From Planctomycetota bacterium (GTDB taxonomy: Bacteria; Planctomycetota; OFTM77): a stretch of 64,000 nt of DNA. The DNA is taken from contig JAJDCO010000108.1 in NCBI GenBank assembly GCA_029260795.1, forward strand, positions 62,001-126,000, read 5' to 3'. The notes below the pieces were generated by a model, which worked only from the letters and a program-made list of their open reading frames with translations, did no database searches and was not told the origin of the DNA. Shown piece after piece: positions 6,774-19,887 of the stretch (the stretch's first letter is position 1; the number at the start of each line of letters is the position of its first letter). The position numbers and the translations under genes were made by a program.

Positions 6774-7052
6774 TCAGTCGATGGATGGGCTGTCCGACCA
6801 AGCGGACTCCGCCACGGCTCCGCGTCGACACGATCGATAGATCCAGATCGCAAAGCCTCCGAAGATCGTGAACGGGGCCGCGAGCATGAAGAGGATGCTC
6901 CAGTTGAAGGCCTCGGCGATCCGTGCGGCTGCGGGATCGGAAGCGACCGCTTCCTTACAGTTCGGTCAGCCGAAAGCCGTCCCGGGTAAGACCGCGATCA
7001 CCGCCAGGAGAATCAGGCACCGAGCCCACGGGAATCGTGCGAGCGTCTTCAT
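6774..7052 (-). CDS. Candidate selenoprotein: small secreted/membrane U-x-x-C protein ending the cytochrome oxidase operon
   Basis: One frame of 92 codons from ATG 7052 (GAGGGAG ribosome binding site, 8 nt after the previous stop) to TGA 6774-6776, interrupted by one UGA at 6966-6968 (codon 29). Read through, residues 1-28 are a signal peptide ending T-A-F-G. Next come U-P-N-C-K-E-A, a short linker, one transmembrane helix (S-I-L-F-M-L-A-A-P-F-T-I-F-G-G-F-A-I-W-I-Y) and an Arg-rich cytosolic tail. Codon usage and hydrophobicity continue normally past the UGA. A hairpin fitting the bacterial SECIS pattern follows the UGA. I recall Cys versions (C-P-N-C-K) of such small proteins in planctomycete oxidase operons, so Sec at the first Cys is likely. 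The role may be copper or thiol handling in oxidase assembly. Alternatives are a nonsense mutation or a 28-residue peptide. Confidence 0.8.
6939..6968 (-). promoter_or_regulatory. Candidate bacterial SECIS element (UGA plus hairpin)
   Basis: In mRNA sense, UGA (6968-6966) is followed by 11 nt, then GGAAGC, loop GGUC, then GCUUCC (6954-6939). This is a perfect 6-bp stem. The loop starts 17 nt after the UGA and begins with GG. Known bacterial SECIS elements place the apical loop about 16-37 nt after UGA and need a G in the first two loop positions. The fdhF loop of E. coli also contains GGUC. Fit is by eye, not by software. Confidence 0.7.
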
Positions 7053-7060
7053 GGGCTCCC

Positions 7061-7486
7061 TCAGGGGGCGCGGTCGACGTGGTAGAGCATCCAGTAGATG
7101 AGGACCCCCGTCACCGAGACGTACATCCACATCGGCCAAGTCCAGCGAGCCATCCGACGGTGCTTCTCGCGTCGATCCTTCCAGCCGAGGATCAGGGTCC
7201 ACGGCGCGAGGATCGCCACCGGAACGGCGAGGATTGTGTGAGAGAGCAGGATGGCAAAGTACGTAGTCCGGATCCAGCCCTGACTCTGAAACCCGGTTGC
7301 CCCGTGCTGGAAGTGGTAAGTCAGGTACGAGATCAAGAACAGCGTCGAGACCGTGAAAGCGCCGACCATGCATCGTTTGTGCAGCTCCAGGCGGCCGCTC
7401 TTGACGGCGATGAAGCCGATCAAGAGCAGGATCGCGCTCAGGGAGTTCAACCCGGCATTGACTGCGGGCAGGTCGGCAAAGGTCAT
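7061..7486 (-). CDS. DUF420 (CtaM-like) membrane protein, oxidase biogenesis
   Basis: 141 residues, four to five transmembrane helices (L-N-S-L-S-A-I-L-L-L-I-G-F-I-A; V-G-A-F-T-V-S-T-L-F-L-I-S-Y; Y-F-A-I-L-L-S-H-T-I-L; W-M-Y-V-S-V-T-G-V-L-I-Y). The conserved H-x-R/K residues (L-H-K-R-C-M and H-R-R-M-A-R-W-T-W-P) match DUF420. Family members assist assembly of heme-copper oxidases. The ATG overlaps the SCO stop by ATGA, so it is coupled to it. Confidence 0.88.
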   Translation of the reverse strand: MTFADLPAVNAGLNSLSAILLLIGFIAVKSGRLELHKRCMVGAFTVSTLFLISYLTYHFQHGATGFQSQGWIRTTYFAILLSHTILAVPVAILAPWTLILGWKDRREKHRRMARWTWPMWMYVSVTGVLIYWMLYHVDRAP

Positions 7487-8094
7487 CGAGCATCCTTCGC
7501 CAAGGCTCGAGCACGCGCGACCAGTCGATCCACGGCGTCTTCGGTCTCGCTGCTGAAGTAGCCCTGCACGACGCCGTCCGCATCCACGAGCACGAGACGC
7601 GTGCTGTGAGCGACTTCCTCACCGGGAAGCGCGCCGGGATCCTCCTGCACGCCCAGCCGAAAGCCCTTCTGGATCAGCTCGTAGATCGAGTCCTTGCGGC
7701 CTGTCAGGAAAAGCCAGCGCTCGGAATCGGCGCCGAAGCTCTCGGCGTAGGTGCGCAGTACTTCGGGAGTGTCTCGTTCGGGGTCGACGCTCACCGTGAC
7801 CAGTCGCACCGTCGTATCGGACAGTCGCTGCTGCACGCTCGCCATGACACCGCTGAGACGCGGGCACGGGCCCGCGCAGTTCGTGAAGGCGAAGCCGGCG
7901 ATCCAGGGAGCGCCCAGCAAGGTCTCCTTGCCCACTGCATCGCCGCTTCGCTCGATGAGCTCGAAGTCCGGGAGCTCAAAGCTCGCGCGCTCGGCCGCGG
8001 AAGCTCCTTCGACGGGGAGCTCGGTCTCCTCACTACAGCTGAGGACCGCGAAGGAAGCTGCCAGAGCGAGGAGCCGGAGTCGGGGCGAAGTCAT
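7483..8094 (-). CDS. SCO1/SenC copper chaperone lipoprotein
   Basis: 203 residues with a lipobox-like V-L-S-C at residue 20 and a thioredoxin fold. It carries the copper-binding C-x-x-x-C-P site in T-N-C-A-G-P-C-P (about residue 92) and the distal His in V-A-H-S-T-R (about 161). SCO proteins deliver copper to the CuA centre of subunit II and/or reduce its cysteines. Position between subunit IV and the DUF420 gene fits that role. The copper site is complete. Confidence 0.93.
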   Translation of the reverse strand: MTSPRLRLLALAASFAVLSCSEETELPVEGASAAERASFELPDFELIERSGDAVGKETLLGAPWIAGFAFTNCAGPCPRLSGVMASVQQRLSDTTVRLVTVSVDPERDTPEVLRTYAESFGADSERWLFLTGRKDSIYELIQKGFRLGVQEDPGALPGEEVAHSTRLVLVDADGVVQGYFSSETEDAVDRLVARARALAKDAR

Positions 8095-8169: not shown

Positions 8170-8466
8170 CTACATGTTCCGGTTATAGATGTCCGGATGG
8201 AGCGCGAACACGAGAACGGCGGCCAGAAAGGCGACCGGGATGAGCAACGTGTACTTCCAACGCCCCTCGTATTTGAGGTGCATGAAGAAGAGAACGACGA
8301 GAGCGGCCTTGGCGGTGGAGATGGCCATGGCCGCCCAGGCAGTCGCCTCGCGGTCGTTCTTGATGGCATCCACGAACGAGATCGCGTAGGTGCCGGCAGT
8401 GAGAACGATCAGCCCGGCGAACACCATCCAGGTGGGCTTGTCGCTGACTTGAGTCGAATGAGCCAT
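8170..8466 (-). CDS. ctaF: Cytochrome c oxidase subunit IV
   Basis: 98 residues from ATG 8466. Three transmembrane helices (W-M-V-F-A-G-L-I-V-L-T-A-G-T-Y; A-A-L-V-V-L-F-F-M-H-L-K; L-L-I-P-V-A-F-L-A-A-V-L-V-F-A-L). The F-M-H-L-K-Y signature is typical of the prokaryotic COX4 family (PF03626). It lies 32 nt after subunit III. A longer reading to 8541 overlaps subunit III and was not used. Confidence 0.9.
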   Translation of the reverse strand: MAHSTQVSDKPTWMVFAGLIVLTAGTYAISFVDAIKNDREATAWAAMAISTAKAALVVLFFMHLKYEGRWKYTLLIPVAFLAAVLVFALHPDIYNRNM

Positions 8467-8498
8467 TGTCTCTTGTCCTCCGTTTTCGGCGAGCGCCG

Positions 8499-9209
8499 CT
8501 ACGACTGCATGATGTAGAGGAGCGGGAAGAGGAAGATCCAAACGACATCGACGAAGTGCCAGTACAGGCCGAAGTACTCGATGACGTGATGGGATTGCTG
8601 GTTGACGGCCCCGCGCAAGCTGAGCAGCAAGATCACCAGCAGCCAGACCAGACCGCCGATGACGTGGAGCGCATGGCAGCCCGTCAGTAAGAAGTAGGTT
8701 GACGCAAACATGTTCCCGTCGTTCACGACCTCGGGGTCGAGCCCCTTCTCCTCGGCAACGATGGCGCCCAGCTTCTCGGCACCCTCACCTCCGGGATAGA
8801 TCCCGGCGTGGATCTTGTGCTCATACTCCATGGCCTTGACGCCCATGAAGACACAGCCGAGGACGAAGACGAGCACGAGCAACCCGCGCATCCGAGCGAC
8901 TTGATTCCTCAGGATGGCGTTGTGTGCCAGTACGACGAGGACCGAGCTCAGGATGAGCACGAAGGTGTTCAGCGCACCGAAGTGCTTGTTGTTGAGGACG
9001 AAGGGGTCCTCCTCGGGACTGAAGCCGGTGATGTAGTTCGAGGGCCAGGCTTCGGCGCCGAATCGTTCGTTGATGTAAACGGCCACGAGGCCCATGAAGA
9101 ACATGATCTCGGTGCCGAGGAACAGCCAGATGCCCAGCTTTCCGGTGGCGAGCTTCGTTTTGCTGCCCTCCGCGGCGGCGGGCTTCATGGGAGCCACTGC
9201 GGTATCCAT
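8499..9209 (-). CDS. ctaE: Cytochrome c oxidase subunit III
   Basis: 236 residues from ATG 9209 (GGAGGAAGAG upstream; an in-frame TTG at 9215 is less likely). Membrane helices carry subunit III signatures: [33 protein letters not shown] and [13 protein letters not shown]. It is the five-helix quinol/cytochrome oxidase form with a 50-residue loop between helices 1 and 2. Confidence 0.95.
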
Positions 9210-9270
9210 GGTCAACTCTTCCTCCAGTCCAATCTCGTTCGGGAAACCGTCATGCGTAGCGGCGCCCGCT

Positions 9271-10164
9271 TCATGCGACCGCGTGATCCAAGACGAGCAT
9301 CAAGAAGATCAGCGGCAAGTATCCGAGGGATGTCCAAAGCAGGCGTCGCGCCGAGGTCAAGCTCGGCTTGAACGCAAAGACGATCGCCGTTCCCAGGAAG
9401 ACGATCCCGAGGAGACCGGCGACGATGAAGTAAGTGGGCCCAGCTAGCCCGAGCGTGGCCGGCAAGAGGCCGACCGGGACGAGCACCAGAGCGTATCCGA
9501 CGGCTTGACGGCCTGTCATGCCATCACCGCCTGCGATCGTCGGAAGCATCTTGAGACCCGCCCGCGCGTAGTCGTCGCGGTAGATCCAGGCGATCGCCAA
9601 AAAGTGCGGGAACTGCCAGACGAAGATGATCGCGAAGAGCGCCCAAGCGCCCAGCGGAACGGTGCCCTCGACTGCTGCCCAACCGATGACGGGAGGCAGA
9701 GCACCCGGCACGGCGCCCACCAGGGTGTTAAGGCTCGTTCGCCGTTTGAGTGGCGTGTACATGAACACATAACTGAAGAGCGTCAGCGCCGTCAGCGAGG
9801 CGGCGAGCCCGTTGACGAAGATCCAGATCAGCGCGATGCCCCCGACGCCGGTGACGAATCCGAGGCTGAGGACCTCCCGAGCAGACAGTCGCCCCGAAGG
9901 CAAGGGGCGATCCGCCGTGCGCTTCATCAGGGCATCGGTGTCCTGCTCGATCCATTGGTTGAGGGCCGACGAGCTGATGGAGGCCAGCAGCACGCCGACA
10001 ATGGTCAGCACGAGTGGCTGCGGATCGGGCGCTCCCCCTGCGGCGAGGAAGGCGCCGACGCCGACGGCCAGGCCGATGAACACGGCGATTCTCGGCTTGG
10101 CGATGGTCAGGTAGTCAGCCCAGCGAGACGGTCGAATCGGAGTCGAGGCGGTCATCATCGTCAT
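9271..10164 (-). CDS. ctaB: Protoheme IX farnesyltransferase (heme O synthase)
   Basis: 297 residues from ATG 10164, which overlaps the ctaA stop (ATGA). UbiA-type prenyltransferase: A-K-P-R-I near residue 22 and the Asp-rich motif [12 protein letters not shown]-x-R-T near residue 72, with a second motif Y-R-D-D-Y near 195. About nine membrane helices. It attaches farnesyl to heme B, giving heme O for CtaA. Pairing with ctaA and subunit I argues for heme A in the oxidase. Confidence 0.95.
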
Positions 10165-11165
10165 CGAACACTCCCGGCGATCTCGACGGAAGGTCCCGTC
10201 CACTCGGCGGCATCGGAAAGCGCCTCACCCACCGGAAGCTCGAGCCTGGGCTCGGCCGCGAAGCGGTAGGTGCGCGTGAGCAAGGTGACGGAAGTCATCA
10301 ACAGCAGAGCACCAACGAGCACGTGTGAGGTCGCGCTGACGACATCGGCGATCGGGATGGCCGCGCCGGGAACGGTGTTTCGCACCGCCAGCCAAGTGAC
10401 GATTCCGAGGAGGATCTGGATGCCGAGCAGCGTGACAAGCCGGCGAGCCGGCTTAGCGAGGGCCGGGACGTCGGCGAAGGAGCGGCGAACGCTTCGCTGA
10501 GTCAGCGAGCACAGCACCGCCACGATCAAGGCGCCCGCCACATGAGCCAAGACGCTCATTTGGAGATGCCGCACGAGAGCGCCCAGGATCAGCTGGCCGT
10601 ACAAGGCGCCGGTCGTCACGAGCGCGAGCCTGCGAACACGGCGAGTCGCCGACCGAGGCTCTGCAGGAGGCGCCTGGCGCCAGCCGGGTGCGGTCACGAC
10701 GGCGATGACGACCACGAGGCAGAAGAAGGCCTGCGCGAAGGACCCGTGGACGACGGCCAGCACGCGCTCGATCAGCGTGACGCGCAGGCCGCCGAGCACT
10801 CCCTGGATGCAGACGCCGACCAAGGCCGCGAATCCCAGCCAGCGGACCCAGCGACGTGATTCTTGTCGCCAGATCCACAAGGCCAGCCCGACCGTGAGCA
10901 GGCCCACGATCGAGCCCATCAGGCGATGGGAGTGCTCCCAGAAGACGCCCGTCGACTCGAGCATCTTGCCGATCGGATACAAGAACATCTGGTAGCCGAA
11001 GGTCGTGGGCCAATCGGGCACCGCCAAGCCGACCTCGAGGGAGGTGACGATCCCGCCCAGCATGAGCAGCGGAAAGGTCGCCACCGCCGTGAGGATGGCG
11101 AAGCGATGCACTCCATTGCGCGACGTCTCGGCCGCGGGGCCCCGATCCTTCGTCTCCAGGCTCAT
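10161..11165 (-). CDS. ctaA: Heme A synthase
   Basis: 334 residues, COX15/CtaA family, about eight transmembrane helices in two pseudo-repeats. Heme-binding histidines are visible in W-E-H-S-H-R-L-M-G (about residue 78), V-H-G-S-F-A-Q (about 140), H-L-Q-M and S-H-V-L-V-G-A-L-L (about 280). The P-D-W-P motif near residue 51 is family-typical. It oxidises heme O to heme A. It begins right after subunit I (stop TGA at 11168-11170). Confidence 0.95.
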   Translation of the reverse strand: MSLETKDRGPAAETSRNGVHRFAILTAVATFPLLMLGGIVTSLEVGLAVPDWPTTFGYQMFLYPIGKMLESTGVFWEHSHRLMGSIVGLLTVGLALWIWRQESRRWVRWLGFAALVGVCIQGVLGGLRVTLIERVLAVVHGSFAQAFFCLVVVIAVVTAPGWRQAPPAEPRSATRRVRRLALVTTGALYGQLILGALVRHLQMSVLAHVAGALIVAVLCSLTQRSVRRSFADVPALAKPARRLVTLLGIQILLGIVTWLAVRNTVPGAAIPIADVVSATSHVLVGALLLMTSVTLLTRTYRFAAEPRLELPVGEALSDAAEWTGPSVEIAGSVR

Positions 11166-11167
11166 GT

Positions 11168-12961
11168 TCAGATCGCGGCTCCCGGTACCGGAGCCGCGCC
11201 GGGCGTCGGGACGTTCTGAGGCAGGTAGTCCTCTTCGACCTCGGGCGAGGCGTACTCATACGGGCCACGGTAGACGATGGGCGTCGTCTCGAAGTTGCCG
11301 TGAGGCGGGGGCGAAGGCGCGACCCACTCGAGCGTGTTCGAGCGCCACGGATTCCGGTCGGCCTTCTCTCCGCCGAAGATGCTGAAGATGAAGTTCAACG
11401 CGAAGATGACCTGGAACCCTCCGAGCACCAACGCACTGATGGTGATGAAGATGTTCAAGTCCTTCAGGTGTGCGAAGGTCTCGTAATGGTACGGATCGGC
11501 CAAGCGGCGAGGCATTCCAGCGGCGCCGAGGACGTGCATCGGGAAGAAGGTGCAGTTCATGGCGACGAAGGTGCCGAAGAAGTGCACCTTGCCCCAGGAC
11601 TCGTTCATCGTGCGGCCGAACATCTTAGGGAACCAGTAATAGATCCCGGCGAAGATGCCGAACGCGCTTCCGCCCATCAGCACGTAGTGGATGTGGGCGA
11701 CGATGAAGTAGGTGTCGTGGATGTAGATATCGATCGGCGTCGCAGCCATGAAGATGCCGCTGAGCCCGCCGATGGCGAACACCGAGATGAACCCGACTGC
11801 GAACAGCATCGCCGAGGTGAAGATCAGGTTTCCTCGCCAGAGCGTTCCGAGCCAGTTGAACGTCTTGATGGCGGACGGCAGCGCGATCATCATCGTCGAG
11901 ACCATGAAGGTCGCGCCCAGAGCGGGGTTCATGCCGCTCTGGAACATGTGGTGGCCCCACACGACGAAACCCAGCCCGGCGATTCCCGCCACCGAGTAAA
12001 CCATCGGTCGGTAACCGAAGAGCGGTTTTCGAGCGAAGGTCGACAACACGTCGGACACGATCCCCATCGCAGGCAGGATCATGATGTAGACGGCGGGATG
12101 CGAGTAGAACCAGAACAGGTGCTGCCAAAGGATCGGCTGCCCGCCACCGGTCGCCACGGTCACGTTGTTGACTACCAGGCCGGCCGGATTGAAGAAGCCC
12201 GTCTGGAGGGTTCGATCCAGGAGCTGCATGGCCAAGGCCGCGGTCAAGACAGGCAAAGCGAACGCCTGCAAGAGGGCGGTGATGAACATTGCCCAGACCG
12301 TCATCGGCATGCGGAACATGTGCATGCCCGGCGCGCGCATCTTGATGATGGTCGTGATGTAGTTCACCGAGCCCATCATCGAGGAGATGCCCACGAAGAT
12401 CAGAGCCACGAGCCACCAAGTCTGACCGCCGAGTGATCCCGGGGCAGCGGTCTCGATCGTCGAGAGTGGTGGATAGGCTGTCCAGCCGGCGGCGGCCGCC
12501 CCTCCCTCGACGGTGAAGCTGTACCCCATGATCAAGAAGGCGGGCCAGAAGAACCAGTAGGACAGCATGTTCAGCGTCGGGAAAGCCATGTCCGGCGCGC
12601 CGATCATGAGCGGAATACAGAAGTTGGCGAACGCTCCGATCAGCATCGGGATGACGACGAAGAAGATCATCACCGAGGCGTGCATCGTGAACAGCATCGT
12701 GTAGAACTCGGGCGAGATGACGTTGCCCGTGTCCGAGAAGAGCATCTTCCCGATCACCGGCATCTCTTGCCAGGGCCAGGCGAGCTGCCATCGAACAGCC
12801 AAGGCCAAGAGGCCACCGACCATGAAGAACACCAGCGTCGTCAGAAGGAACTGGATGCCGATGATCTTGTGGTCGAGCGAGAAGACGTACTTGCGGAGGA
12901 ATCCCGGCTGAGGGTGATGCCCGTGGCCGCCGGATTCAGAATGGTGTGCGGTCGCGTTCAT
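11168..12961 (-). CDS. ctaD: Cytochrome c oxidase subunit I (aa3 type)
   Basis: 597 residues with 12 or more helices. It holds heme a, heme a3 and CuB. Markers: F-T-M-H-A-S-V-M-I-F (low-spin heme His), W-Q-H-L-F-W-F-Y-S-H-P-A-V-Y (CuB His and cross-linked Tyr), V-W-G-H-H-M-F and H-D-T-Y-F-I-V-A-H-I-H-Y-V-L-M-G (heme a3/a His). The Y-S-H-P form, rather than the canonical G-H-P-E-V-Y, lacks the Glu of A-type oxidases, so the D-channel may be replaced by Y-S residues (A2-like). The start was set at ATG 12961. A GTG at 12979 overlaps the subunit II stop. Confidence 0.96.
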   Translation of the reverse strand: MNATAHHSESGGHGHHPQPGFLRKYVFSLDHKIIGIQFLLTTLVFFMVGGLLALAVRWQLAWPWQEMPVIGKMLFSDTGNVISPEFYTMLFTMHASVMIFFVVIPMLIGAFANFCIPLMIGAPDMAFPTLNMLSYWFFWPAFLIMGYSFTVEGGAAAAGWTAYPPLSTIETAAPGSLGGQTWWLVALIFVGISSMMGSVNYITTIIKMRAPGMHMFRMPMTVWAMFITALLQAFALPVLTAALAMQLLDRTLQTGFFNPAGLVVNNVTVATGGGQPILWQHLFWFYSHPAVYIMILPAMGIVSDVLSTFARKPLFGYRPMVYSVAGIAGLGFVVWGHHMFQSGMNPALGATFMVSTMMIALPSAIKTFNWLGTLWRGNLIFTSAMLFAVGFISVFAIGGLSGIFMAATPIDIYIHDTYFIVAHIHYVLMGGSAFGIFAGIYYWFPKMFGRTMNESWGKVHFFGTFVAMNCTFFPMHVLGAAGMPRRLADPYHYETFAHLKDLNIFITISALVLGGFQVIFALNFIFSIFGGEKADRNPWRSNTLEWVAPSPPPHGNFETTPIVYRGPYEYASPEVEEDYLPQNVPTPGAAPVPGAAI

Positions 12962-12968
12962 GGCGTAC

Positions 12969-13745
12969 TTACTCCCCACCTTGCTGATCGAGCCAGGCCT
13001 GGAACTCCTCGGGCGTGTGCACGTAAACTCGACCCTTCATCTTGTAGTGTCCCCAGCCACACAGCTCGGCGCAGACGAGGTCGTATTCGTTGTCGTCGGT
13101 TCCGCCCTGAATCTGAGCGTCGAACCAGACGGGGATCGTCATCCCGGGAACCGCGTCCTGCTTGATACGAAACTGAGGCACGAAGAAGCTGTGCAGGACG
13201 TCAGCAGCCTCGAGGTCGATGAGGAACTTGCGTGGATCCTCGCCTTCCTTCCAGCCCGGAATGTGCAGCTCGTTGACGGTCTGAACATCGTCGAGAGTGC
13301 CGTAGCGACCGTCCTTGCCCGGGTAGGTGATGCGCCACTCGAACTGCCGCGCGACGACCCGTGCCATCGGGCCGCCTTCGATCCCGAACTCTTGGGTGAA
13401 CTTGATCGCCCTCCAGTCCTTCATCTGCACGAACGCGATGAAGATCAGGATCAGGGCCGGAACGATCGTCCAGATCACCTCGAGCGCGTGATTGCCATGG
13501 ACGTGGGCCGACGCCTTGTTCTGGCGCTTCGACGAGTACCGGAACATGAAATACACCAGGAACGCGTTCACCAGAACGAAGGTGACCCCGGTGATCCACA
13601 GGATCAGGCGGTACAGGTCGTCGATACGATGGCCGAAGCTCGAGACGTTGGTCGGCATCGACCAGCCGTAATCGGGGGCGACCCAGAAGAGCGCCACCGC
13701 ACCCACCGGCACCAACAGGAACAAAAGGCTCCACAGCTTACGCAC
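12969..13745 (-). CDS. ctaC: Cytochrome c oxidase subunit II (CuA)
   Basis: 258 residues from GTG 13745 (AGGAG upstream). Two N-terminal membrane helices, then the periplasmic cupredoxin domain. The CuA site is intact: H in V-L-H-S-F-F-V-P, then C-A-E-L-C-G-W-G-H-Y-K-M. No fused heme domain is present. The electron donor is probably the diheme cytochrome encoded just upstream or the octaheme protein. The aromatic W residues near the CuA site are present. Confidence 0.96.
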   Translation of the reverse strand: MRKLWSLLFLLVPVGAVALFWVAPDYGWSMPTNVSSFGHRIDDLYRLILWITGVTFVLVNAFLVYFMFRYSSKRQNKASAHVHGNHALEVIWTIVPALILIFIAFVQMKDWRAIKFTQEFGIEGGPMARVVARQFEWRITYPGKDGRYGTLDDVQTVNELHIPGWKEGEDPRKFLIDLEAADVLHSFFVPQFRIKQDAVPGMTIPVWFDAQIQGGTDDNEYDLVCAELCGWGHYKMKGRVYVHTPEEFQAWLDQQGGE

Positions 13746-16215: not shown

Positions 16216-19200
16216 TCAACGCGGATTGCTCGCCGCTGCCGGCGAGGCCGTCCAATTCATGAGCAGATCCTTGATCGCTTCCACCTGATGACCGGACGGG
16301 GCGGCAAAGGCCTCTTGGTACCGCTCCTCGTCGGAGAGGAACAGCTGCGGCATCTTGGTCCCCGGTTGGAAACCTTGTGGATCGAAGATCCACGAGCGAA
16401 TCCACTCCGGCCTCAAGCGTTCGTGGGCCATCGACAAGTCCGGCGCCCAGCTCGAAGGATCCCCTTCCGGTGTCTTCTCTCCCTGCATGTGGCAGTTGAA
16501 GCAGTTGACCTGCGGATCCTGCATCAGAGCCCAAGCGTTTTCGAGATACTGCTCGGGTTGATCGTCGCTCCGGGCTGCGAGGTAGCTCGCCGCCGACTCG
16601 TCATAGTAGTTGTAGGGGTACTGACGCCGATCCTTGGCACCGAAGTAGTTCGCGAGCGTCGTCGCCTCCTCCTGAGTGAACCCGAAGGTCGGCATCCGCA
16701 CCTCGAACCAAGGGCGGAGCGGATACGGGTTCATGAGGAACTCGAATGCCCAGGGCGTCTGGATCTTCTGGCCTTCGCGAAACAGCACGGGCGGCTTGTA
16801 GGGATCGATGGTCGGCTGGATATCGTTGAAGTACTCGTCCGTGTCGAACGGGTCGAGATCCTCGTTTTGAGCGTAGGCCAGCTCGAGCGATCGGCCGAGG
16901 CGGCCTCCCAGTGCAAGGCTCGGGTCGATGAGCTGCACGATCTTGTCGCGCGTCAGCTCGAGCTCGGCAAAGGCGTCGAGGCCCAGCTCCTCGATGGGCT
17001 TCATCAAGCCGAAGGTCAACGAGCCTTCCTCGAGGTCGGCCGAGGTGATCTTGCCGTAGGCGAGGTGGATCTGGCCATCCTCACCAATGAATCGGATGGC
17101 CGTGAAGAGAGAGACGTCCGCCTGAATGTCTGCTTCGACGCCGAGCTCGAGAGTCGTCCCGACCGGGTCCAGCACACTCACGCTTTCGAGGTCCGTGATC
17201 TTCTCACCGGCCAGCATTCGGATCTTCTCGGGATTGCTGAACATCTCGTAGGCAATCGGAACCGAGTCGGCGCCGTAGATCGTCTGCGCGGCCGCGAAGT
17301 CGGTCTGCCCCTTTTGCGTCAGGGCGATCTGATCGGTCCAGGCCCGGAAGAAGCTGACCTCGTCTTCGACCGAGACCTCGGTGACCTGCCCGATGGCGTG
17401 TCGGCGGAGGGCGTCGTCGTCCAAATAGCTGATCTCATGCATCTCGAACTGGTGGCATCCGTAGCAATTCGAGTCGTGGATGATCCTCTCACCACCGGCG
17501 ATCACTTGGGCGTCCCCTTGCAGGTTCGCCTTCATGATTTCGGGAATCAGCTCTTTCCGATTGCCGAACAGGTAGGTGACGAGCGCCTCGATTTGATCGT
17601 CCTTGAACTCGAAGTTCGGCATGCGCGAAGCGTCTTTGTAGGCCTTGTAGCGGCCTCGATCGAAGATGCGCGGGTAGCGAATCTTCATGCCCAGCCAGCT
17701 GTGGAGAGTGTGGTCGATGTGATAGGTCTTCTCTTCGCCCGTCACGCGATCGACGCCATCGACCTCGTGAAGCTCGAGTCCGAAATCGACGGTGTGCAGA
17801 TCCTTCGTACCGTGCTCGGAGAGCTCGGCCCCGATGCCCTTGGCATCCTCGTATCCGTTCACCCAGTGGCAGCCGGTGCAGCCGTAGCGCTCGACGAGCT
17901 TCTGACCGACGAAGGTGCGCTTTTGGTCGAGGCTCATCGCATCGGCCTTCGCTTGGGCATCCGCGATCGGAAGATCGTCGAGGTAGTTCTCGATGATGCG
18001 GGCATCGAGGAAGCTCAGATAGTCAGCATCCGAACGATCCGGAGAGCCCCGGAAAGGGGACTCGGTCTGGAATGCTTCGAGGAGATAGGAGGCAATGTCC
18101 AGCGCTTCTTGGTCTTCGAGGCGCAGGCTAGGCATGCGTCCGTCCGGATGATACTGCTTCGGGTCCTTCACCCAGTGATAGAGCCAGGCGAGATTGAGCT
18201 TCTCGCCGACCCGAGACAGGTTGGGACCAAAGTTGTTGCCCGGCGCGAAGGGAAGGGAGTCGACGGCGTGGCAGCCTAGGCAGCCACGGTTCTCGAACAG
18301 CGTTTTGCCGCTCTCGGTATCGGCTTCGAGCCCGTCGGGAAGGGGCAAGTCCATCGGCACCGACTGTTGGAACAGGAAGGCCGTGATCGAGTCGGCCTCG
18401 ACCTGATTGAACTTCTGCATCTGCTCACGATGAGCTCGCGTATCCAGCTCACCGCCGCTGTTCGAGAGCCCAAAGAACTTGGGCATCTTGGTCGTCGGGC
18501 GAAACGCCTTCGGATCGAGCAGCCAGGCGTACACCCAGTCGGGCTCGAGCTTCGCCCCCACCTGGCGCAGGTCGGGTCCGACCTTTCGTGGCGACTCGAA
18601 GTCCTTCATGGCGTGACAGCCATGGCAACCGTACTCGTAGAAGATCATGCGTCCGGCATTGACGCTGTTGTGCCCGGCCAGGGTGGCACCCTCGTCGACG
18701 GTGTTCCAGGCCGGTGAAGAGGCGGCGAGCTCGACAGTGGTCGGCCCGGCTTCGGGAATCGTCCAGCTGTCCCCGTGACACTTGAGGCAGGAGGAGTAGA
18801 TGTACTGGGTAGGCACCATGGGGAACTCCCAGTGCATGAAGGCCTTGGGCGTCCAGCCGTACTTCTCCTCCCACTGCTCACGCTGCGCGTCATCGCGCGG
18901 CACGTGAGCACTGCCCTTGAAGGTCAGGTCCTGGCCGCGACCTTGGTGGCAGACGGTGCAGCCGAAGTCGAGATAGGAGTGCGGCGAGCTGGGAGAGACG
19001 AAGAGGTCGAGGCGCGGGTGCGAGCGGAAGGGATGCTCCCAGTTGTCCCCGGTGTATCCGATGCCATCGATCGCCATGTGGCAGGTCTTGCACATGTCGA
19101 TGCGCTCGGCCTGAGTGAAGTTGAGGTCGTCCCGGAGATTCGGCGGCTTGACCCACTCGACCTTGGTCACCGGATCGATGAAGTCCATCATCGGCGTGCG

Positions 19201-19887
19201 ATCGAGCACGGTATTCCTGAAACCGGACTCGGTGCGCTCGATCTTGCGAGCGAGGATGTCGCGCTTCTCGGTCAGGCTGCGAATCTCGTCATCGTAGACC
19301 GTGACCTGCTTCTCGAGCTCTCCGAGCTCATCGCTGATGGACTTCTCTTGCTTCTTGAGCTCGTTCAGATCGTTGGAGAGCTTTGCGATGTCCTGCTCAT
19401 TCTTGACGACGAGATCGTAGCGATCGCGCAGACCTTCTGGGAACTCTGCCGGATCGATCCGACCCTCTCCGTGCTCCACCCGAAAGTGAGTGAGCTCGGA
19501 TTCGTACTCGTAGCGAAGAACGTCCAGCTTGGCCCGGGCGAACTTCACGAGCTGATCGGCGCGGTAGATCTGCTCTCGCTGCAGCTTGTCGAGCTGATCC
19601 CGTTTCGCCTCGATATCGCTTTCGATTCGAGTGAGGGTCTGAGTCTTGGATTCCTGAGCTTGCTCGAGGGCGGCCTGATTCTGCTCGTCGAGCTCCTCGA
19701 TCTGAAGGCGGGCGCGCTCACGATCCCGGGCGAAGAAGTCCCGTTGGAAGTGCTTCCATTCGCGATCGTAATCGTCGATCACCATCCAGATGACGGACGC
19801 GATGAGAGCCAATGCTGAAAACAGAAAGACAACGTTCAAACGCTGGATGTTGAACGCGTGATCCGTCTTGCGCTTGGGGGTGGCCAA
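16216..19887 (-). CDS. Giant membrane-anchored octaheme cytochrome c with coiled coil
   Basis: 1223 residues from a TTG start at 19887 (GGAG upstream). Residues about 17-37 form a membrane anchor. Residues 50-220 form a long charged coiled coil. Then come eight C-x-x-C-H sites in order: CKTCH, CTVCH, CLKCH, CHGCH, CLGCH, CTGCH, CYGCH, CFNCH. Several are followed by cytochrome c Met regions (T-K-M-P-K, G-R-M-P-S, S-R-M-P-N, V-R-M-P-T, T-K-M-P-Q). It lies 3' of split cytochrome b and Rieske genes, where cytochrome c1/f would stand. I infer it is the c-type subunit of this bc complex, wiring it to the oxidase. I do not know a named family. Confidence 0.88.
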   Translation of the reverse strand: MATPKRKTDHAFNIQRLNVVFLFSALALIASVIWMVIDDYDREWKHFQRDFFARDRERARLQIEELDEQNQAALEQAQESKTQTLTRIESDIEAKRDQLDKLQREQIYRADQLVKFARAKLDVLRYEYESELTHFRVEHGEGRIDPAEFPEGLRDRYDLVVKNEQDIAKLSNDLNELKKQEKSISDELGELEKQVTVYDDEIRSLTEKRDILARKIERTESGFRNTVLDRTPMMDFIDPVTKVEWVKPPNLRDDLNFTQAERIDMCKTCHMAIDGIGYTGDNWEHPFRSHPRLDLFVSPSSPHSYLDFGCTVCHQGRGQDLTFKGSAHVPRDDAQREQWEEKYGWTPKAFMHWEFPMVPTQYIYSSCLKCHGDSWTIPEAGPTTVELAASSPAWNTVDEGATLAGHNSVNAGRMIFYEYGCHGCHAMKDFESPRKVGPDLRQVGAKLEPDWVYAWLLDPKAFRPTTKMPKFFGLSNSGGELDTRAHREQMQKFNQVEADSITAFLFQQSVPMDLPLPDGLEADTESGKTLFENRGCLGCHAVDSLPFAPGNNFGPNLSRVGEKLNLAWLYHWVKDPKQYHPDGRMPSLRLEDQEALDIASYLLEAFQTESPFRGSPDRSDADYLSFLDARIIENYLDDLPIADAQAKADAMSLDQKRTFVGQKLVERYGCTGCHWVNGYEDAKGIGAELSEHGTKDLHTVDFGLELHEVDGVDRVTGEEKTYHIDHTLHSWLGMKIRYPRIFDRGRYKAYKDASRMPNFEFKDDQIEALVTYLFGNRKELIPEIMKANLQGDAQVIAGGERIIHDSNCYGCHQFEMHEISYLDDDALRRHAIGQVTEVSVEDEVSFFRAWTDQIALTQKGQTDFAAAQTIYGADSVPIAYEMFSNPEKIRMLAGEKITDLESVSVLDPVGTTLELGVEADIQADVSLFTAIRFIGEDGQIHLAYGKITSADLEEGSLTFGLMKPIEELGLDAFAELELTRDKIVQLIDPSLALGGRLGRSLELAYAQNEDLDPFDTDEYFNDIQPTIDPYKPPVLFREGQKIQTPWAFEFLMNPYPLRPWFEVRMPTFGFTQEEATTLANYFGAKDRRQYPYNYYDESAASYLAARSDDQPEQYLENAWALMQDPQVNCFNCHMQGEKTPEGDPSSWAPDLSMAHERLRPEWIRSWIFDPQGFQPGTKMPQLFLSDEERYQEAFAAPSGHQVEAIKDLLMNWTASPAAASNPR

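Follow-up and report, generated by a model that had tools for sequence, protein, structure and literature searches.

Selenoproteins with a UGA-coded selenocysteine (Sec) in a CxxC-type motif are known among redox proteins, as UxxC or CxxU forms of thioredoxin, of DsbA/DsbG-like proteins, of a thiol:disulfide interchange protein and of GOS_C. Like the family described here they have Cys homologues and a bacterial SECIS element right after the UGA, and several of them are exported thiol redox proteins. They adopt a thioredoxin-like fold, which is also reported for GOS_C (PMC2398784), a near neighbour by motif, whereas the proteins found here consist of a signal peptide and a single membrane helix, fit none of the models for those proteins and are encoded in cytochrome oxidase operons. 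A precedent for Sec at either motif cysteine of one domain is provided by thioredoxin-like Sec.1 (CxU) and Sec.2 (UxC) (PMC13188914, Table 1), although their fold, spacing and gene context are unlike those of the new family. The oxidase assembly factors SCO, CtaM/DUF420, CtaK, PCuAC and TlpA resemble it in being encoded with the oxidase or needed for it and in being membrane-anchored or periplasmic, and SCO and TlpA are likewise thiol proteins; however, no sequence relation to any of these factors was found, and none of them is listed in the 2026 selenoprotein table. Also comparable are two membrane metal transporters that contain Sec, the mercuric transport protein and SO_0444 Cu/Zn efflux (PMC13188914, Table 1), in which a membrane protein with a link to soft metals likewise has Sec within a small motif. 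They are different families, however, and the sole trace of a relation was a weak MerE match (E=0.004) in 1 of 20 members.

Neither the 2026 catalogue of 119 prokaryotic selenoprotein families (PMC13188914) nor the 2025 deep-Sep additions (PMC12013277) contains a small, single-helix, oxidase-linked family, and comparison of 20 members with Pfam and NCBIfam (June 2026) gave no match to a selenoprotein model, with a few entries that have no model (e.g. GOS_A) lying outside this comparison. Because no such family appears in these two sources or among the Pfam and NCBIfam models, we call it, as predicted from sequence, a new bacterial selenoprotein family. No literature on a Sec protein tied to cox operons or to CuA assembly was found, bioRxiv and most subscription papers being outside the scope of the search; it is not excluded that a Planctomycetes genome paper mentions one in its supplementary table of selenoproteins (PMC4807772). 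The family is widespread and testable, is truncated by gene callers and is missing from the catalogues searched. It would link selenium to the building of an aerobic terminal oxidase, a role of which we found no report.

The candidate gene, its operon and the Sec machinery of the genome

The first-pass annotation of the window (the whole stretch of 64,000 nucleotides that was analysed) had proposed a Sec codon in a short gene at the end of a cytochrome oxidase operon. When the coordinates were recomputed, a single in-frame UGA was indeed located in an otherwise intact gene of 92 codons, preceded by a good ribosome-binding site just ahead of its ATG; what the annotation had omitted is that the gene lies on the minus strand (ATG 7052-7050, in-frame UGA 6968-6966, final stop TGA 6776-6774; Table 1). 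With the UGA translated as Sec the product reads MKTLARFPWARCLILLAVIAVLPGTAFG-U-PNCKEAVASDPAAARIAEAFNWSILFMLAAPFTIFGGFAIWIYRSCRRGAVAESAWSDSPSID. In this translation a signal peptide ending in GTAFG is followed by UPNCKEAVAS, which a short linker connects to a single hydrophobic helix; this agrees with the described placement of UPNC after a signal peptide and before a single membrane helix. Standard gene calling would stop at residue 28 and would truncate members of the family in this way. The position at the operon's end was also borne out, since Pfam matches assign the genes on the same strand, in the order CoxB-CtaD-CtaA-CtaB-CtaE-CoxIV-SCO-DUF420, to the oxidase and its assembly, and the candidate gene follows DUF420 as the last one. 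Upstream of the cox operon a multi-haem cytochrome c-like protein of 1223 residues is encoded (window 16216-19887, minus strand).

Table 1. Candidate selenoprotein gene and cytochrome oxidase operon (positions in the window)
Feature	Position	Strand	Evidence
Predicted selenoprotein gene (92 codons + stop; signal peptide, UPNC, one membrane helix)	6774..7052	-	translation with TGA=U; homologues with U or C in that column
In-frame UGA, predicted to be read as Sec; residue 29, first residue of UxxC	6966..6968	-	
Putative SECIS hairpin, 6-bp stem GGAAGC/GCUUCC, GGUC loop from +18 after the UGA; also encodes EAVAS	6939..6954	-	
Ribosome-binding site GAGGGAG, overlaps stop codon of the DUF420 gene	7056..7062	-	sequence
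DUF420 (CtaM-like) oxidase assembly protein, next gene upstream	7061..7486	-	PF04238, E=2e-43
SCO1/SenC copper chaperone, 4-base overlap with DUF420	7483..8094	-	PF02630, E=1e-27
Cytochrome oxidase subunit IV (COX4_pro)	8170..8541	-	PF03626
Cytochrome oxidase subunit III (CtaE)	8499..9215	-	PF00510
Heme O synthase (CtaB)	9271..10203	-	PF01040
Heme A synthase (CtaA)	10161..11165	-	PF02628
Cytochrome oxidase subunit I (CtaD)	11168..12979	-	PF00115
Cytochrome oxidase subunit II (CoxB), CuA ligands CAELCGWGHYKM	12969..13745	-	PF02790 + PF00116

Absence of selA, selB, selC and selD from the genome had been named as grounds for rejecting the Sec codon. All four genes are present. In the source genome selA (525 bits), selB (360 bits) and a tRNA-Sec with UCA anticodon (80 bits) were detected, and selD lies between the tRNA-Sec gene and selA on one contig (G000:C101:18951-21573, locus L186), with selB on contig C113. 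The selD gene has an in-frame Sec UGA of its own, and its sequence SAGUAAKI fits UxxK, the Sec motif given for SelD (PMC13188914). Judged by its gene content, the organism is one that decodes Sec. Sec decoding looks unusually common in the phylum, selA being present in 245 and selB in 231 of 392 genomes.

Exchange of Sec and Cys in the family

A protein search of 99 genomes returned homologues, many of them with exactly one TGA. A profile (A1) built from 20 homologues was then used on 392 genomes of the phylum and detected the family in 110 of them. Reading 81 hits at the motif gave 32 UxxC, 14 CxxU and 34 CxxC members and one odd case, with the window gene as the 33rd UxxC. The UxxC members show the variants UPNC, UDSC, UPSC, UPGC, UESC, UPMC, UAGC and UPAC, and the CxxU members CAMU, CVMU, CPMU, CPGU, CEMU, CSMU and CALU. 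Homologues with Cys or Sec at exactly the position of the UGA, the lack of which would have spoken against the first-pass annotation, were thus found. Neither TAA nor TAG occurred at the motif positions of the family genes read, TGA being the only stop codon there. A sequencing error is ruled out because dozens of separate genomes have the UGA in this column together with a covarying SECIS hairpin. The odd case (G288, locus L144) is a divergent member with adjacent Cys-Sec (SCUPPQ) in place of CxxC, and in another genome (G075, locus L147) two paralogues of the family share a contig at a distance of about 5 kb.

Past the UGA, pN was lower than pS in 7 of 8 close pairs; the eighth (G062/G211) is almost without synonymous change. 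By this comparison purifying selection is inferred to persist downstream of the UGA, and the coding sequence is conserved to either side of it.

The Sec forms co-occur with the machinery that decodes them, as selA or selB was present in 44 of 46 Sec-form genomes vs 25 of 58 Cys-form genomes (Fisher's test, p=4e-9, genome relatedness ignored). The test counts one genome (G147, upstream CLTC, not a Cys form) among the Cys forms, an assignment that slightly weakens the difference. The two Sec-form genomes without selA and selB (G211, G301) are incomplete assemblies, 77-79% complete. A tree computed without the motif and the SECIS-coded columns, which is poorly resolved, implies no fewer than 8 switches between U and C. 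With repeated Sec/Cys switches and Sec at either cysteine with a matching SECIS, the family is a good case for the study of selenoprotein origin and loss.

The hairpin downstream of the UGA

A perfect 6-bp hairpin with a GGUC loop had been described after the UGA, and it was recovered with 17 bases between the UGA and the loop. The classical SECIS of E. coli fdhF likewise has GGUC in its apical loop. An Rfam scan of the region gave no match to a SECIS family. Hairpins that loosely resemble a SECIS come after about 20% of the window's 1698 TGA triplets, and a hairpin by itself is therefore weak evidence. A 6-bp stem with a GGUC loop that starts at +18, however, is found at only one of the 1698, the UGA of the candidate gene, and comparison with homologues places the finding far outside chance. 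The single-sequence fold z-score is an unremarkable -1.3, and the hairpin was therefore judged by covariation.

In a comparison of 32 UxxC genes, 88% of the cells for the six stem pairs are paired, and five of the six pairs show compensatory double changes, for example from A-U to C-G or from G-C to C-G. Double-change cells numbered 24 in the stem vs 7.5 in shuffles, and the covariation score of 0.386 fell to 0.143 or less when the partner was slid by 1-3 columns, which destroys the signal. The demand that a bacterial SECIS hairpin place an early loop G about 16-37 nt past the UGA is thereby met by an element that is conserved with compensatory changes.

GGUC at +18 was detected in 26 of 33 UxxC genes vs 2 of 34 Cys genes. 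The peptide AVA, encoded by stem and loop, is present in 23 of 33 UxxC proteins vs 1 of 34 Cys proteins, and its Val codon is GTC in 29 of 29 UxxC genes. A peptide near-fixed in the UxxC forms only, with the codon always GTC, is what is expected if the RNA and not the peptide is conserved. The exact GGUC element is absent from 7 of the 33 UxxC genes, which would need a different SECIS-like hairpin. The two Cys forms that still have GGUC at +18 (L153 in G020, L176 in G184) possibly carry remnants of a former SECIS. In CxxU genes the UGA lies nine bases further on, and in 12 of 14 a GGU is found at +19 to +22 from their own UGA, demonstrating that the SECIS element relocated with the codon; several CxxU genes have a new stem.

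These observations bear on two other readings of the UGA. If it were an ordinary stop, or the mark of a decayed copy, the gene would be a pseudogene or a chance ORF; the end of standard gene calls at residue 28 is in keeping with this, as is the frequency of loose hairpins after TGAs in the window. It is nevertheless difficult to reconcile with a motif UGA in 47 genes that is Cys in the others and never TAA or TAG, with conservation and purifying selection past the UGA, or with the covarying SECIS and the co-occurring Sec machinery, and we regard it as very improbable. Readthrough by itself leaves the inserted residue unidentified, so that a code change or a suppressor might have the UGA decoded as Trp or Cys. 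This appears less credible still, since many family genes, the window gene included, end in UGA as their normal stop codon, the homologous residue is Cys, the genome encodes a full Sec system with a Sec-type selD, and the hairpin is retained only in UGA genes. That the UGA in the oxidase-operon gene is a Sec codon is, in our estimation, close to certain; all the evidence is comparative and no protein has been observed.

Genomic neighbourhood, predicted structure and proposed role

Genes for cytochrome oxidase (cox) were found within about 5 kb of 31 of 32 UxxC members (window excluded), 28 of 34 Cys members and 6 of 14 CxxU members. DUF420 and SCO are the commonest immediate upstream neighbours of UxxC genes, and the lone UxxC member without cox neighbours starts 7 bases from a contig end. 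The gene order varies (in family f8 it is CtaE, selenoprotein, SCO, DUF420), indicating that the oxidase linkage has outlived rearrangement. As a recognised cox gene within about 5 kb is missing for 8 of the 14 CxxU members, the oxidase link may not extend to the CxxU branch. CxxU members outside any recognisable cytochrome oxidase cluster are found at loci L131, L142, L143 and L132 (G348, G319, G132 and G301, respectively).

An AlphaFold2 model computed from 67 family members (alignment A3; mean pLDDT 81.9) predicts a signal helix at residues 8-21, a helix at 30-38 that is opened by the CxxC motif, and a long helix at 40-86. In this alignment C29 and C32 are the only invariant columns, with S52 and M56 nearly invariant. 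A thioredoxin fold was not found, as the predicted model has helices only and no thioredoxin-like match was obtained in Pfam or NCBIfam. Pfam, NCBIfam and profile comparisons revealed no sequence relative of known function. A relation to the N-terminus of cytochrome oxidase subunit II (QoxA, COX2_TM) was considered on account of a weak QoxA match (best E=0.001, 3 of 20 members) and was ruled out, there being no COX2_TM match and an hhalign probability of only 0.4% to CoxB of the window operon.

In the proposed mechanism the ribosome would read the in-frame UGA as Sec by means of SelB and tRNA-Sec, guided by the downstream hairpin with its GGUC loop, and the selenoprotein would be co-expressed with cytochrome c oxidase, its gene coming at the end, behind SCO and DUF420/CtaM. 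The inferred topology puts the Sec/Cys pair on the periplasmic side, at the surface of the membrane, and the protein is inferred to serve copper-site assembly there. As a membrane-tethered selenol/thiol couple it might maintain the copper-handling cysteines in SCO and at the CuA site in the reduced state; alternatively, the couple might hold copper or pass it on during oxidase assembly. In related bacteria the versions with CxxU or with Cys alone presumably have this function too. Of the role in oxidase assembly or copper/thiol handling that had been suggested for the gene, the setting is supported by the conserved cox neighbourhood, and the biochemical part remains an inference from neighbourhood and motif. 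With that reservation, a role in oxidase assembly as a whole is probable.

Both versions of this role are compatible with Sec. The cysteines must be reduced for CuA to be assembled, a step at which TlpA and SCO act in other bacteria, TlpA keeping cysteines reduced in Bradyrhizobium (PMC9145763). UxxC/CxxC might accordingly be a thiol-selenol reductant of the SCO and CuA cysteines, a minimal, non-thioredoxin stand-in for TlpA/ResA. Sec at either Cys of the CxxC motif is the usual sign of a redox pair, and SCO adjoins the family gene in most genomes, but there is no thioredoxin fold, no obvious partner that supplies electrons and no biochemical data, and we hold a reductant to be plausible without being established as the better part of the probability. 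The other possibility is that the Sec/Cys pair is a soft-metal ligand that hands Cu(I) between DUF420/CtaM, SCO and the oxidase. Copper-handling proteins are its neighbours, one proposal for CtaM/DUF420 is that it exports or reduces copper destined for SCO, with SCO-DUF420 fusions noted in planctomycetes (PMC13344008), and a metal-ligand role of Sec has been proposed for several membrane selenoproteins (PMC13188914). Only two candidate ligands are available to such a protein, however, a conserved His cluster is absent, and conservation is essentially limited to C29, C32, S52 and M56; copper transfer is put forward only tentatively. The reductant is slightly favoured, because Sec can replace either cysteine, as is usual for redox pairs. 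We consider it rather likely, on balance, that this is the first selenoprotein family tied to the assembly of an aerobic heme-copper oxidase: a minimal membrane protein, predicted to have a single helix, with Sec at either CxxC cysteine according to lineage, a SECIS that relocates along with it, and selenium chemistry that would act on CuA thiols or on copper.

The family was also detected in 68 of 85 Poribacterial genomes. Two of these (G428, G430) had been flagged with one TGA and proved to be Cys forms whose TGA is an ordinary terminator. At the Poribacterial loci L049-L064, 16 of 16 members are Cys forms located inside a cox cluster near CtaB and CtaE.
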